The notes below the pieces were generated by a model. It ran no database searches. It worked only from the letters and a program-made list of their open reading frames with translations, and was not told the DNA's origin. This document shows positions 60,318 through 64,000 of a DNA stretch of 64,000 nucleotides, piece after piece; position 1 is the stretch's first letter, and the number at the start of each line of letters is the position of its first letter. The translations under genes were made by a program, and so were the position numbers. The DNA is from Owenweeksia sp. Lineage in GTDB: Bacteria; Bacteroidota; Bacteroidia; Flavobacteriales; Schleiferiaceae. The stretch covers positions 1 through 64,000 of the forward strand of contig NZNV01000034.1 of the NCBI GenBank assembly GCA_002695025.1. The letters run 5' to 3'.

Positions 60318-61160
60318 ATGTTCTCAAACACGGATATAGCTGAGTATTACGATACCACTCAAAATCACTATGAAAAGTGGTGGGGGCTTAAAAAGCATCA
60401 TTCCCTACACTACGGTATATGGGATAAAACCACCCGTAATTTTGGCGAGGCACTGGAAAACACCAATCGCCAGTTAATGCAGGCGGCAGCCATTCAAAGT
60501 ACCGATAAGGTATTGGATGCCGGCTGTGGTGTGGGTGGAGCGGCTCTGTTTGTACACCGCAACAGTGGGGCTAACGCAACTGGAATATCATTGAGTGATA
60601 ATCAAGTGCAGCAGGCCAACTCTACGGCTGAGAAGCTGGGAGTAAACGATGCTGTGCAGTTTAAGGTTATGGACTTTACCGCCACCTCTTTTCCCGATGA
60701 GTCCTTTGATGTGATATGGGCTTGTGAAAGCGTGTGTCACGCTACCGAGAAAGCAGATTTTATCAACGAAAGTTACCGCCTTCTCCGTAAAGGTGGAAGA
60801 ATGGTCCTTTTCGATTTTTTCCTTACCCCCAAAGGTGTGGAAGATAAAAGAGGCTGGATCGATAAATGGAAACGTACCTGGGCCGTACCTGATTTTGTAA
60901 CCGATGAGTACTTTACGGAGAAAACCCGGGAAGCGGGTTTTAGTGAAGTGGAAAACCGGGACTATACGCCCAATATTCGGAAAAGTGCCAGGCGCATGCT
61001 ATACGGTTCTATGCTGGGTGTAAGCTTCGCAGAGGGCTATGCCTTATTACACCCTGATGTTTCACGCTTTGCCCGTGATCATTATAAGTGTGGGTATTAC
61101 CAGTACCGGGCACTGCGGCAGAACCTTTGGAAATACCGGCTTATTAAAGCGGTTAAATAG
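60318..61160 (+). CDS. SAM-dependent methyltransferase (class I)
   Basis: This 280-residue methyltransferase has the SAM-binding motif VLDAGCGVGGAALFV near residue 65, FDVIWACESVCHATEK near 135 and LLRKGGRMVLFDFFL. The motif pattern resembles the tocopherol/sterol and sarcosine-dimethylglycine methyltransferase group, which acts on small molecules or lipids; the substrate is not determinable. It follows osmC by 30 bases and precedes the small secreted protein gene by 8 bases. Confidence 0.88.
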   Translation: MFSNTDIAEYYDTTQNHYEKWWGLKKHHSLHYGIWDKTTRNFGEALENTNRQLMQAAAIQSTDKVLDAGCGVGGAALFVHRNSGANATGISLSDNQVQQANSTAEKLGVNDAVQFKVMDFTATSFPDESFDVIWACESVCHATEKADFINESYRLLRKGGRMVLFDFFLTPKGVEDKRGWIDKWKRTWAVPDFVTDEYFTEKTREAGFSEVENRDYTPNIRKSARRMLYGSMLGVSFAEGYALLHPDVSRFARDHYKCGYYQYRALRQNLWKYRLIKAVK

Positions 61161-61168
61161 TATTGAAA

Positions 61169-61699
61169 ATGAAATTATACCGATCCCTGACTGCCCTGCT
61201 GGCTTTGTTTTTTACCCTTTCCCTGAGTGCCCAGGAAGCTGATATTCCGGCTATCCCGCACGAAGAAAGCCTGATGAAGGCGGCCGGTAAATACGCGGCT
61301 GCTACCCAAAAGCAGGACTGGAATAAGGTAATCGATATGACCTACCTGCCACTGGTGAAGCTCAACGGAGGCCGGCAAACCCTTTTGCGCCAGGCCCAGC
61401 TTTCCGATCAAAATTTACAACAACAGGATTTTGAACTGAAGGCGGCCGAGCTTTCCGCACCCTTAAGCGAGACCCCGGTAGGTGATAATATATTGGCAGT
61501 AGTGCCCATACGACTCACTTTTAACGGTCCTTTGGGTAAGCTGTATTCCGAATCCAGCTTGTTGGGTGTTTCTGAAGATGCCGGTAAAAGTTGGAGCTTC
61601 ATCTCCATGGCGCAGGTGGACATGAACCAGGTGATTGAGCTGTTCCCCAAGCTGCCCAAAACTTTTGTAGTGCCGCAGAAGCGGGTGTACCAGGAGTAG
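61169..61699 (+). CDS. Small secreted protein, unknown function
   Basis: This 176-residue protein has a signal peptide (LTALLALFFTLSLSAQ) and a compact domain with AAGKYAAATQKQDWNKVIDM and GKSWSFISMAQVDMNQVIEL. The shape, an alternating helix/strand protein after a signal peptide, resembles DUF4440/NTF2-like stress proteins, but I do not assign a family. ATG at 61169 is preferred to TTG at 61163. Its last 105 bases are copied nearly exactly at 63276-63380. Palindrome R1 begins 11 bases after the stop. Confidence 0.8.
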   Translation: MKLYRSLTALLALFFTLSLSAQEADIPAIPHEESLMKAAGKYAAATQKQDWNKVIDMTYLPLVKLNGGRQTLLRQAQLSDQNLQQQDFELKAAELSAPLSETPVGDNILAVVPIRLTFNGPLGKLYSESSLLGVSEDAGKSWSFISMAQVDMNQVIELFPKLPKTFVVPQKRVYQE

Positions 61700-61735
61700 A
61701 AAGGATAGTAAAGCGTAGCGGGACGCTACGCTTAG
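61593..61735 (+). repeat. Left copy of a 143-bp direct repeat (end of secreted-protein gene plus palindrome R1)
   Basis: This stretch matches 63274-63416 at 140 of 143 positions with no gaps, counted by eye. The differences are at 61620 (A/G), 61636 (T/C) and 61700 (A/G). It contains the last 34 codons and stop of the gene, the spacer GGATAGTA and palindrome R1. Confidence 0.9.
61711..61733 (+). repeat. Palindromic REP-like element R1
   Basis: Arms AAGCGTAGCG and CGCTACGCTT form a perfect 10-bp hairpin with loop GGA. It is preceded by GGATAGTA and followed by AGG. It sits between the convergent stops of the secreted-protein gene and the RES-like gene. No T-run flanks it. Confidence 0.9.
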
Positions 61736-61739
61736 GTTG

Positions 61740-62585
61740 CTACCAATTATACTTTAATATTTTTTTTCCAATATTCGGTGTATCATGAAACTCAAGTTTT
61801 GAATTTTTTGATTCACCTTGACCTTCCTCTATTTCCGCATACTTCAATGGTTTTAATGATATGTTCTTACCATCTGATAAATATCTGTATATCCACACAT
61901 TAGAGCAATATAAATTATCGTCAACATATTGAGGTTTAAAGCCATAGTTGATTAACTTAAGACTTGAGGCAACACTGGGATAAACTAAACCGGAAGTTTC
62001 CTGGTTCTTCAATAAAATATTGGTGAACGCGATGGTATACTTATATTCGAACTCTCTTCCTTTGTCTATAGGTCTATGAAAACAACTTGAAATAAATTTC
62101 TCGATTTCTCTGTCGAATTGATTTTCATAGGCATAGTTTCCAAGAAGATGCTTCCACATATCTGATTTCCTTAAAATCTCAATTCCAGCAAAATGACATT
62201 TTGGTGGAATTGAATTCGTGCGACATTTAAATTCCCCTATTAGTAAATATTCCCTATTAGTTGGGCGTAACTCTTTTATAGTTGCCTCCACAGTGTTTGA
62301 AGAATAAAAGAAGTTTTGACCTTTATCATTGCATCTGCCAAATTTTTGCTCTTCCAATTTTATAACAGACTGGTCCCTATACCATATTTGCTTAACACTC
62401 TTAATTTTTTCAATGTCTTCTTCTTTTATAATCCTAGACCTAAATAATCCCTCGAATGTATTTAGTTCGGTTGTTGGTCTGGTATGTGAAAGTATCTCTT
62501 TGGAAAAGAAACTTTCTAATTCACCTATTGAACAGGTCTCAATGTTATATCTAATCAATTTAGAAAACCGCATGCTATTGCTCAT
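61740..62585 (-). CDS. RES-domain-like protein (NAD+ phosphorylase family) in an AT-rich insert
   Basis: In this 281-residue protein, residues about 60-230 follow the RES pattern: QIWYRDQS, FGRCNDKGQNFFYSSNTVEATIKELRP and, late, SGLVYPSVASSLKLINYGFKP. The Arg, Asn-Gly and Glu positions fit the fold in which RES toxins cleave NAD+. RES toxins are usually encoded with an Xre/MbcA-type antitoxin, but none is adjacent. The gene is visibly AT-rich (20 of 60 G/C in the sampled row 61801-61860), unlike its neighbours, and lies between palindromes R1 and R2, so it is probably acquired. Family assignment is moderate; no toxicity is shown. Confidence 0.62.
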   Translation of the reverse strand: MSNSMRFSKLIRYNIETCSIGELESFFSKEILSHTRPTTELNTFEGLFRSRIIKEEDIEKIKSVKQIWYRDQSVIKLEEQKFGRCNDKGQNFFYSSNTVEATIKELRPTNREYLLIGEFKCRTNSIPPKCHFAGIEILRKSDMWKHLLGNYAYENQFDREIEKFISSCFHRPIDKGREFEYKYTIAFTNILLKNQETSGLVYPSVASSLKLINYGFKPQYVDDNLYCSNVWIYRYLSDGKNISLKPLKYAEIEEGQGESKNSKLEFHDTPNIGKKILKYNW

Positions 62586-62619
62586 AGTAATTGTTTAAAG
62601 CTAATTCACTTTTCCTACT

Positions 62620-62642
62620 AAGCGTAGCGTCTCGCTACGCTT
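62620..62642 (-). repeat. Palindromic REP-like element R2 (inverted orientation)
   Basis: Same arms as R1, with loop TCT on the plus strand (AGA on the minus strand). The flanking GGATA lies on the right on the minus strand, so this copy is inverted relative to R1, R3 and R4. It lies between the RES-like gene start and the RAYT gene end. Confidence 0.9.
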
Positions 62643-62661
62643 CCATATCCTTAACATCATT

Positions 62662-63207
62662 TTATAGTTTTTCAATAGGTAATAAACTCGGCAGATCCGC
62701 ATAATTACGGGCACTACTGTATATGTAATCCTGTGCTTGTTCTACCCATCCGGCCCGTACCGGGTTTTCATGAATGTACTTCAAGCGTGAATCTATCATT
62801 TCTGCGTTAATCAACTCAACGGCATGGTTGTGATGCGTCCAGAGTTGCTGGTTCGTAACGCGCTTATTAAACTTAGCATGGTATTGGAACACTATTTTCA
62901 TCCAATCTTTACGACTTTCCTGTGGATGGTGTTCGATTTCTTTTAGAATACGATGAGAGGTGAAGCTTTTGAAATCATGCACAGTATCCGATAAATTACC
63001 AACAGTACTCCTAAGGATCAGATGCAAGTGATTAGTCATTATAACATAGCCGTATACAACCAAACCTTTATTCTTAATACAATATTCCAGGCTTTTGATA
63101 AGGATATCCCGGTATACTCTTCTGCTGAAAATATCCATCCATCCTACTACCTGACAGGTCAAAAAGTAGGTGGCATTCTGATCTTTTATTTGATAGCTAT
63201 CGCTCAT
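62662..63207 (-). CDS. REP-associated tyrosine transposase (RAYT, Y1/IS200-like)
   Basis: This 181-residue HUH-family nuclease has the metal-binding motif MTNHLHLIL near residue 60, the front segment YFLTCQVVGWMDIFSRRVYRD, and the family end YIHENPVRAGWVEQAQDYIYSSARNY. RAYTs are domesticated relatives of IS200 transposases that bind and cut REP palindromes. Their genes are usually single-copy and flanked by inverted REPs, as here (R2 left, inverted; R3 right). This copy appears intact and could act on the R elements. Confidence 0.9.
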   Translation of the reverse strand: MSDSYQIKDQNATYFLTCQVVGWMDIFSRRVYRDILIKSLEYCIKNKGLVVYGYVIMTNHLHLILRSTVGNLSDTVHDFKSFTSHRILKEIEHHPQESRKDWMKIVFQYHAKFNKRVTNQQLWTHHNHAVELINAEMIDSRLKYIHENPVRAGWVEQAQDYIYSSARNYADLPSLLPIEKL

Positions 63208-63243
63208 ACTTTAGTTAAAGGTAGCGAATACGGGTTAATATTG

Positions 63244-63266
63244 AAGCGTAGCGGGACGCTACGCTT
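63244..63266 (+). repeat. Palindromic REP-like element R3
   Basis: Identical arms and GGA loop as R1. It lies 36 bases upstream of the RAYT start and 7 bases before the right copy of the 143-bp repeat. The downstream AGAGGAGG resembles that after R4 (AGAGGGG). Confidence 0.9.
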
Positions 63267-63275
63267 AGAGGAGGG

Positions 63276-63380
63276 AGCTTCATCTCCATGGCGCAGGTGG
63301 GCATGAACCAGGTGATCGAGCTGTTCCCCAAGCTGCCCAAAACTTTTGTAGTGCCGCAGAAGCGGGTGTACCAGGAGTAG
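63276..63380 (+). pseudogene. Truncated 3' fragment of the small secreted-protein gene
   Basis: These are the last 34 codons and stop of the gene at 61169, in frame with it but without signal peptide or start. There is one amino-acid change (Asp to Gly in AQVDMNQV) and one silent change. It is a remnant of duplication, not a working gene. Confidence 0.85.
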
Positions 63381-63391
63381 GAAGGATAGTA

Positions 63392-63414
63392 AAGCGTAGC
63401 GGGACGCTACGCTT
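63392..63414 (+). repeat. Palindromic REP-like element R4
   Basis: Identical to R1 with the same upstream GGATAGTA, as expected from the 143-bp duplication. It lies 12 bases before the stop of the convergent GNAT gene. Confidence 0.9.
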
Positions 63415-63426
63415 AGAGGGGACGGA

Positions 63427-63921
63427 TCATATCGATATCTTATGCCTTTTCAATTCATATATATAGCAAAGAGTTCCATCAAATTCCCGTTCTTCTATAA
63501 ACTCAAATCCCAGCCTACGGTAAAACCGGTGCGCCTTGGTATTGGTCTTTAAAGGGTCAATAAGTATCCCATTTACGGTCGCATCCTGAAAACATCTTGC
63601 AATGGCAAGTTCCATCATACTGGTTCCGTAGCCTTTGTTCAGGTTATGAGCTTCCCCAATCCATATATCAATAGCTCTCTTGTTAGGTTCAACCTTCCCC
63701 CAGTAGTGGGTTTCTTCCAAATAAGGGTCAATGATCTGTAAAAAGCCAATAGGCTCTCCGTATAATTCAGCAAGCAATTGTTCCCTCCAGGGAGGGTTCC
63801 TGCCGAGTTCCGTTTCCCAATCCCAATCATCATCCGGATCGCAATCAATAACGTGTTGCTGGGTATCCCAATGCTTTACCAGTTCAAGATCATGCAGGGT
63901 AGCGGGCCGCAGTTTTATCAC
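63427..63921 (-). CDS. GNAT acetyltransferase, AAC(6')-like
   Basis: This 164-residue acetyltransferase has the acetyl-CoA loop NLNKGYGTSMMELAIARC near residue 95 and TKAHRFYRRLGFEFIEE near 130. The front half (WETELGRNPPWREQLLAELYGEPIGFLQI, YWGKVEPNKRAIDIWIGE) resembles the aminoglycoside 6'-N-acetyltransferase-like subfamily, many of whose chromosomal members have no proven resistance role, so resistance is not claimed. The start appears to be GTG at 63921. It is framed by palindromes R4 and R5. Confidence 0.82.
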   Translation of the reverse strand: MIKLRPATLHDLELVKHWDTQQHVIDCDPDDDWDWETELGRNPPWREQLLAELYGEPIGFLQIIDPYLEETHYWGKVEPNKRAIDIWIGEAHNLNKGYGTSMMELAIARCFQDATVNGILIDPLKTNTKAHRFYRRLGFEFIEEREFDGTLCYIYELKRHKISI

Positions 63922-63989
63922 GGGGGTTGAATTCAGGGTTTAAGGATAACTATTGTTTATACGCTGGTTTAAAGATAGTAAGGATACTA

Positions 63990-64000
63990 AAGCGTAGCGG
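63990..64000 (+). repeat. Palindromic REP-like element R5, cut by the window edge
   Basis: The left arm AAGCGTAGCG and the first loop base G are present, preceded by AAGGATACT as before R1 and R4 (AAGGATAGT). The right arm lies beyond the window. Confidence 0.75.

Follow-up and report, generated by a model that had tools for sequence, protein, structure and literature searches.

The question raised by one end of this stretch of Owenweeksia sp. DNA is why a gene for a REP-associated tyrosine transposase (RAYT) should stand in a row of single genes separated from one another by copies of one repetitive extragenic palindrome (REP). The window, by which we mean the whole stretch analysed, comprises the first 64,000 bases of the 64,772-base contig C39 of the genome under study (G000; 4.46 Mb, 41 contigs). 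Our analysis favours, with rather more confidence than doubt, a REP/RAYT unit (REPtron) that is present in few copies, belongs to a Bacteroidota lineage and lies in a gene-turnover hotspot where the REPs would act as junctions for the turnover of accessory genes. From 5' to 3' the segment holds a 178-aa gene (+), R1, a RES-like gene (-), R2, the RAYT gene (-), R3, a gene fragment, R4, a GNAT acetyltransferase gene (-), a half copy R5, R6 and a hydrolase-like gene (-), R1 to R6 being the palindromes; the compartment order of the first-pass annotation (RES-like, RAYT, fragment, GNAT) was therefore correct.

Four complete copies of the palindrome AAGCGTAGCG-NNN-CGCTACGCTT, with perfect 10-bp arms and a 3-nt loop, were found in the window, at 61711-61733 (R1, +), 62620-62642 (R2, in the opposite orientation, -), 63244-63266 (R3, +) and 63392-63414 (R4, +). 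No further site was present in the window at up to three mismatches (0.00 expected, 100 shuffles), and the palindrome is thus confined to this segment of it, as had been proposed. The annotation had counted five copies; the fifth, R5 (63990-64000, +), is a true half copy that ends in the loop (AAGCGTAGCGG, then GGGCGGTG) and is not cut by the window edge, and a complete copy, R6, follows just outside the window at contig positions 64041-64063. The hairpin has a stability of -14.3 kcal/mol. In the genome as a whole the exact pattern occurs at 14 sites and the pattern with up to three mismatches at 26, so the absence of the palindrome elsewhere, named in advance as grounds for refuting the unit, was not what we found.

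The RAYT gene (62662-63207, -; 181 aa) lies between R2 and R3, which form an inverted pair with the ATA motifs of their flanks pointing inward, and this bracketing bears out the original description. Its product passed the NCBIfam model NF047646 (94.3 bits, cut-off 80) and Pfam Y1_Tnp (29.5 vs 23), and scored 17.9 bits on the IS200 model against a cut-off of 55. The sole match in the PDB up to an E-value of 1 was 4ER8, the E. coli TnpAREP (E 0.0089). The protein has the HUH motif NHLH and a single catalytic tyrosine motif, YIHENP, and, taken with the inverted REPs around the gene and the 14 exact copies of the palindrome in the genome, these features identify it as a genuine RAYT. Two further RAYTs, on C10 (59 % identity) and C38 (40 %), are flanked on both sides by palindromes of their own, of the AGGCGTAGTTTGCAACTACGCCT and CGCGCGAAAGATTCGCGCG type respectively. 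In a tree of 27 RAYTs, comprising the loci of this analysis and E. coli rayT, the window protein paired with that of the sister species G002 (support 100/98); the next to join were the C10 paralogue and a Bacteroidales metagenome-assembled genome (87/81, not strong). A short RAYT relic was also seen on C27 (16064-16367, locus L030), together with a decayed REP and about 3 kb from a tsaB-like gene. The tsaB-like gene of G002 likewise has a REP next to it, with a similar flank (ATAACC...AGGAGG).

The distribution of the palindrome was examined in 60 genomes, including G000, G002 and a further member of the genus (G001). It was present in two of them, G000 and G002, with 17 and 3 sites at up to one mismatch (15 and 6 in a looser form), and was absent from the other 58. 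A still looser core pattern gave 24 sites in G000 and 10 in G002, and between 0 and 2 in each of 19 other genomes, the same level as reversed controls. RAYT homologues were found in 13 of the 60 genomes, yet the only close one was that of G002 (77 % identity); the 11 remaining genomes carry homologues of 24–44 % identity, a few of them weak or broken, and lack the palindrome. Within this set the palindrome occurs only where this RAYT lineage does, and is therefore tied to this lineage rather than to RAYTs in general. The second preset ground for refutation, a palindrome present in many RAYT-free genomes, did not materialize either, and the co-occurrence, together with the copies elsewhere in the genome, supports the view of the segment as a REP/RAYT unit.

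RAYTs had been described in the first-pass annotation as known mainly from Gammaproteobacteria, so that this one might be a distinct lineage. This is only partly new, as passages of PMC6006769 (2018) already describe TnpAREP subclass 2.6 (group 5 RAYTs of Bertels) as mostly from Bacteroidetes, with atypical hairpins that lack GT[AG]G. The window RAYT resembles that subclass in belonging to the Bacteroidota, in its length (~180 aa), in its NH[LIV]H motif (here NHLH), and in the hairpins that flank its gene and recur elsewhere in the genome, but differs in carrying WT rather than WQ and YIHENP rather than YIH[QN]NP. The C10 paralogue (RAYT2) carries WT and YIHQNP. Since its motifs fit in part only, we regard the window RAYT as closest to subclass 2.6, judged by motifs, and not as a placed member. 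It also resembles the REPtrons and REPINs described in parts of PMC2817692 (RAYTs of Gammaproteobacteria) and PMC3116915 (which defines REPINs in Pseudomonas fluorescens), in that the RAYT gene lies between inverted REPs, inverted doublets occur elsewhere and each of the three RAYTs of the genome has a palindrome family of its own. However, there are about 25 copies here, compared with the >100 usual for REPs according to PMC2817692, the GTAG is paired and leaves no unpaired foot, and an ATA motif stands 3 nt before the stem.

A strict scan, in which each arm had to contain GTAG and 9 of 10 stem pairs had to form, returned 34 REPs in G000 and G002. ATA occupied positions -6 to -4 before the stem in 30/34 and GATA was present in 19/34, so the GGATA flank noted earlier is real and general, and AG followed the stem in 32/34. 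The form of these REPs is thus ATA-N3, a 10-bp stem with paired GTAG, a loop and AG, which is new here. Orientation was set by the AG, with ATA decisive only in ties; the scan mis-oriented L019 4042 (R6), which has AG on both sides, and degenerate sites at up to three mismatches, such as C35 6810, C21 260017, C16 2200 and C27 16064, fall outside it. In R1 to R4 the GTAG is paired at stem positions 5-8, in place of the unpaired 5' GT[AG]G foot of canonical GTAG REPs. Because the scan demanded GTAG, its conservation in the strict set is by construction; independent support came from palindrome searches free of that condition, covering the flanks of RAYTs at 21 loci (L042 and L043 were left out), in which the RAYTs of L019, L066, L020, L035 and L036 proved to have palindromes of the GTAG-in-stem type next to them. 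The outer and inner stem pairs change with compensation (AAGC, GGCC, AGTC, GGCT; CG to TG). A second REP architecture was noted in the Bacteroidota, in which one foot of the hairpin carries CA and the opposite foot CGCCAGC, CGCTAGC or CGACTGC; such hairpins flank several more distant RAYTs, those of L067, L109, L110, L111, L112, L038 and L040.

Inverted doublets, with ATA sides inward and 24–35 nt between the REPs, occur at C20 490/544 and L075 4594/4652 in G000 and at 854796/854843 and 2758520/2758576 in G002; in a fifth pair the REPs are 132 nt apart. The four doublets, two in each genome, are laid out like a small-scale version of the RAYT unit, and as pairs of inverted REPs with short spacing they are REPIN-like by layout.

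The position of REPs relative to genes was assessed at 36 sites, comprising the 34 strict REPs, L068 1594 and L075 4594. Orientation counts omit two sites with AG on both sides, and 2 of the remaining 34 have no gene on the AG side. The AG side faced a stop codon in 26 of the 32 oriented REPs with a gene there, at a distance of less than 30 nt in 11/26, and in two cases the stop codon overlaps the edge of the REP. In five of the six exceptions the REP is the left-hand member of a doublet or of the RAYT unit. A looser scan of 46 sites, several of them plainly spurious, had given a codirectional count of 17/24, which is superseded by the strict count given below.

Comparison with the sister species carries the argument from the unit itself to its surroundings. 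The RAYT gene and three REPs were observed at one place in both species, with the REPs in the same orientation. The order in G002 is OsmC-like gene, methyltransferase, 171-aa gene, REP, choice-of-anchor-D lipoprotein, REP, RAYT, REP and a polyphosphate-kinase-like gene (gene names outside the window, namely hydrolase, regulator, XRE, kinase and lipoprotein, were assigned by eye from sequence, except that the choice-of-anchor-D identity of the lipoprotein comes from a profile match). The slot between R1 and R2 therefore differs in content, holding the RES-like gene in G000 and the lipoprotein in G002. When the 60 nt on either side of the REPs were compared as z-scores against shuffles, similarity was seen at R1 on its gene side (z 15.6), at R3 on its RAYT side (z 11.1) and, weakly, at R2 on its RAYT side (z 2.2, a score reached by 10 of 300 shuffles; z 1.7 over 100 nt). 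Over the same 60 nt no similarity was found in the cargo-facing flanks of R1 (z -0.7) and R2 (z -0.8) or beyond R3 (z -1.4). Similarity thus stops at the REPs, and different cargo lies between REPs that were most likely present in the common ancestor; this finding, too, is new here.

The wider interval is also a variable region. In the palindrome-free G001 an XRE-like gene comes immediately after the 178-aa gene, a correspondence of gene order only, as the bases downstream are too diverged to define an exact empty site. The XRE-like gene has its G000 orthologue on C34 and its G002 orthologue about 22 kb downstream of the 171-aa gene, and because it is adjacent in G001 but apart in the other two genomes, the interval is a variable region. 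Hydrolase pieces on C34 and C39 match adjacent parts of a single 320-aa gene in G018, with the same regulator preceding, and the two contigs thus very probably abut inside one hydrolase gene. The C34 XRE-like gene had been entertained as the counterpart of the kinase gene beside the RAYT in G002, and was dropped after the loci were compared.

Furthermore, our data indicate that REPs mostly border genes missing from the sister species, which is new here. Seventeen REP-neighbour genes of G000, chosen before the search as those whose stop codon faces the AG side of a REP, were compared with 20 controls, most of them at least two genes away from a REP (one, c13_421, is nearest on the ATA side). 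A match of at least 50 % identity in G002 was found for 0/17 neighbours vs 8/20 controls (one-sided Fisher 0.003). The reverse test, of G002 genes against G000, gave 2/10 vs 9/15 (p 0.058); one of its ten neighbours (AraC98) faces the REP with its start. Pooled in both directions the counts were 2/27 vs 17/35 (p 0.0004), or vs 14/32 controls (p 0.0017). At five REP loci with a flanking orthologue (C24, C9, C21 at 260 kb, C13 at 541 kb and C34) the REP lies in a stretch without a G002 counterpart, although at C24 only one side is visible. This is the opposite of the pattern in P. fluorescens SBW25, where, according to a passage of PMC2718517, it is the repeat deserts that hold genes 93.7 % unique to that strain; here it is REPs that lie among genes absent from the sister.

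Several observations suggest how REPs might come to act as junctions. According to PMC3733652, in the part concerned, the E. coli RAYT acts on single-stranded REP hairpins, and by analogy we infer that the window RAYT would do likewise. The enzyme would nick single-stranded REP hairpins and place copies of REPs and doublets at new positions, in many cases immediately downstream of genes. These copies would then become junctions, where recombination between REPs or strand transfer by the RAYT would add, remove or swap adjacent genes. Because each REP is a palindrome, any two could pair as direct repeats, and deletion or exchange would need no special orientation. Two classes of rearranged REP were observed in G000, half REPs (R5 and C20 2322) and REPs with AG flanks on both sides (R6 and a hybrid REP at C20 1594), and these are as expected if doublets had collapsed with loss of their inside.

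The ‘gene fragment’ compartment of the first-pass annotation is present where it was placed, but proved to be part of a duplication. It corresponds to the 3'-terminal 107 nt of the 178-aa gene (61163-61699, +), now at 63274-63380, copied together with its REP as a 143-bp direct repeat of 98 % identity, of which the source copy (61593-61735, +) comprises the gene 3' end, R1 and AG and the second copy (63274-63416, +) the 107 nt, R4 and AG. Such a piece is what would be left by a duplication that began within the 178-aa gene and ended shortly beyond R3, if the DNA between two REP copies in direct orientation was subsequently lost.

A number of points weigh against REPs as junctions. The bias of AG towards stop codons is modest among codirectional sites (17/23, p 0.035), only one locus shows exact slot exchange, and there the anchoring R2 flank is weakly similar by the 10 of 300 shuffles given above, and at 23 bp the repeat is short for homologous recombination. 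Both the REP-neighbour and the control genes were chosen by hand, controls near REPs were frequently missing from G002 too (12/20), and the reverse test left out the RAYT and the 171-aa gene, both REP neighbours with counterparts, and falls to 2/10 vs 6/12 (p 0.16) once three controls whose matches were known beforehand (methyltransferase, folD and ffh) are removed. Relatives of REP-bordered genes occur in other genera (c34_500, 73–75 %; the hydrolase, 71–83 %; its regulator, 83 % in G018; GNAT, 60 % in G020; c38_297, 64 % in G031), and as these genomes are palindrome-free, REPs were not carried with the genes between genera. Activity of the RAYT, an excision product or polymorphism was likewise not observed.

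Some of the same facts would suit passive hitch-hiking, whereby accessory genes arrive by ordinary means and REPs pile up in the loosely constrained space behind them, with no part in turnover. REPs elsewhere lie mostly downstream of coding regions, as a passage of PMC3733652 notes, the regulator-hydrolase pair is found in the palindrome-free G018, and both the 12/20 unmatched controls and the weakness of the reverse orthology test are in keeping with it. However, similarity to G002 ends at R1, at R3 and probably at R2, REPs that are shared in place, so at least one cargo replaced another between them, and the 11 of 26 AG-to-stop distances below 30 nt, together with the two stop codons that overlap a REP edge, also speak against it. 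We consider hitch-hiking a serious possibility, if a doubtful one.

The ‘cassette-like use of REPs’ raised in the first-pass annotation is borne out in so far as REP neighbours are mostly absent from the sister and one slot holds a different gene, but its support is incomplete. In its strongest form, the RAYT and REPs would be an integrase-free cassette system whose mobile unit is a gene with a REP at its 3' end, RAYT strand transfer from REP to REP on single-stranded DNA would swap such units in fixed slots, and the array at this locus would be a store of single-gene compartments; we think this unlikely. A review (PMC10969869) states, in the relevant passage, that stretches between miniature inverted-repeat transposable elements (MITEs) can move or be exchanged; that mobilization involves terminal inverted repeats and a transposase in trans, whereas here most REPs are singlets, the enzyme is a Y1 HUH protein and movement is putative. 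PMC3116915, in part, proposes a possible advantage for REPINs that incorporate host-useful DNA. The relevant passages of PMC11194056 place a RayT gene near an efflux gene in Chryseobacterium and leave REPs unmentioned. No report of REP-bounded gene exchange was found in the literature searched (on RAYTs of Bacteroidetes or flavobacteria, and on extragenic palindromes with gene cassettes), a search that most subscription papers lay outside.

That the palindromes are transcription terminators only is very improbable: their hairpins are stable and often near stop codons, but none of the four window REPs was flagged as terminator-like by a scan that gave two other sites, not above shuffles, and the exact sequence, the conserved ATA and AG flanks, the doublets and the restriction to genomes with this RAYT would all be unexpected. 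Least credible of all is a chromosomal integron-like array, in which attC-like palindromes and an integrase would move one-gene cassettes, for although the arrays seen consist of single genes, mostly on one strand, and many stop codons have a palindrome shortly after them, the repeat is a perfect 23-mer, the enzyme linked to it is a RAYT and the listed REP flanks, inspected by eye only and with no integrase search of the genome made, show none of the core boxes (GTTRRRY / RYYYAAC) of attC sites.

Among the remaining features of the segment, the 178-aa gene forms the left border of the variable region and has a 68 %-identity orthologue at the same place in G002. R1, with the loop GGA and GATA 7 nt before the stem, has its AG side 6 nt from the stop codon of the RES-like gene (61740-62585, -; 281 aa) and, like R2, whose ATA side points towards the RAYT, a REP at the same place in G002. 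The RES assignment has similarity to the Pfam model (PF08808) in its favour, but the score lies under the cut-off (21.3 vs 23.2 bits); the slice has no match in G002, and a single match of the protein to the PDB (E 0.91) was treated as chance. R4, within the duplicated piece, has its AG side 12 nt from the stop codon of the GNAT gene (63427-63921, -; 164 aa), for which no homologue was found in G002 and whose product shows a weak likeness to AAC(6') acetyltransferases, far under every curated cut-off listed. PADLOC found no match for four proteins, and Rfam none for 61000-64000 up to an E-value of 1.

Additional REP-bearing regions were observed elsewhere. The ends of contigs C20, C35 and C16 (the ends of L068, L069 and L073) have one repeat in common (GAGCTTGCGAGCTCACGAACACC...), so a second multi-REP accessory array probably lies beside the folD region of C16. 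REPs are also present near folD in G002. The REP-array contig C35 carries a tandem gene family of four neighbouring lipoprotein-like open reading frames (L069 83-2815; 39–56 % mutual identity). Two helix-turn-helix regulators, identified by eye (L070 16469-17158 and L069 8332-9063; 58 % identical), adjoin different small enzyme genes, each with a REP behind, as paralogous regulator-enzyme modules. On C21, at about 260 kb, L022 1517-2050 consists of three tandem ~190-bp units, each a REP with other repeated sequence (CTTCGATACACTCCG...).

In summary, REPs have been known mainly as repeats of high copy number. Here a RAYT lineage with few REPs has them standing beside genes that differ between sister species. 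The ATA-N3-stem-AG anatomy offers a concrete substrate for assays, and the idea of REPs as exchange points can be tested in this genus, where copies are few and one or more orthologous slots are clean; if REPs do act in this way, RAYTs would represent a new route of gene turnover.

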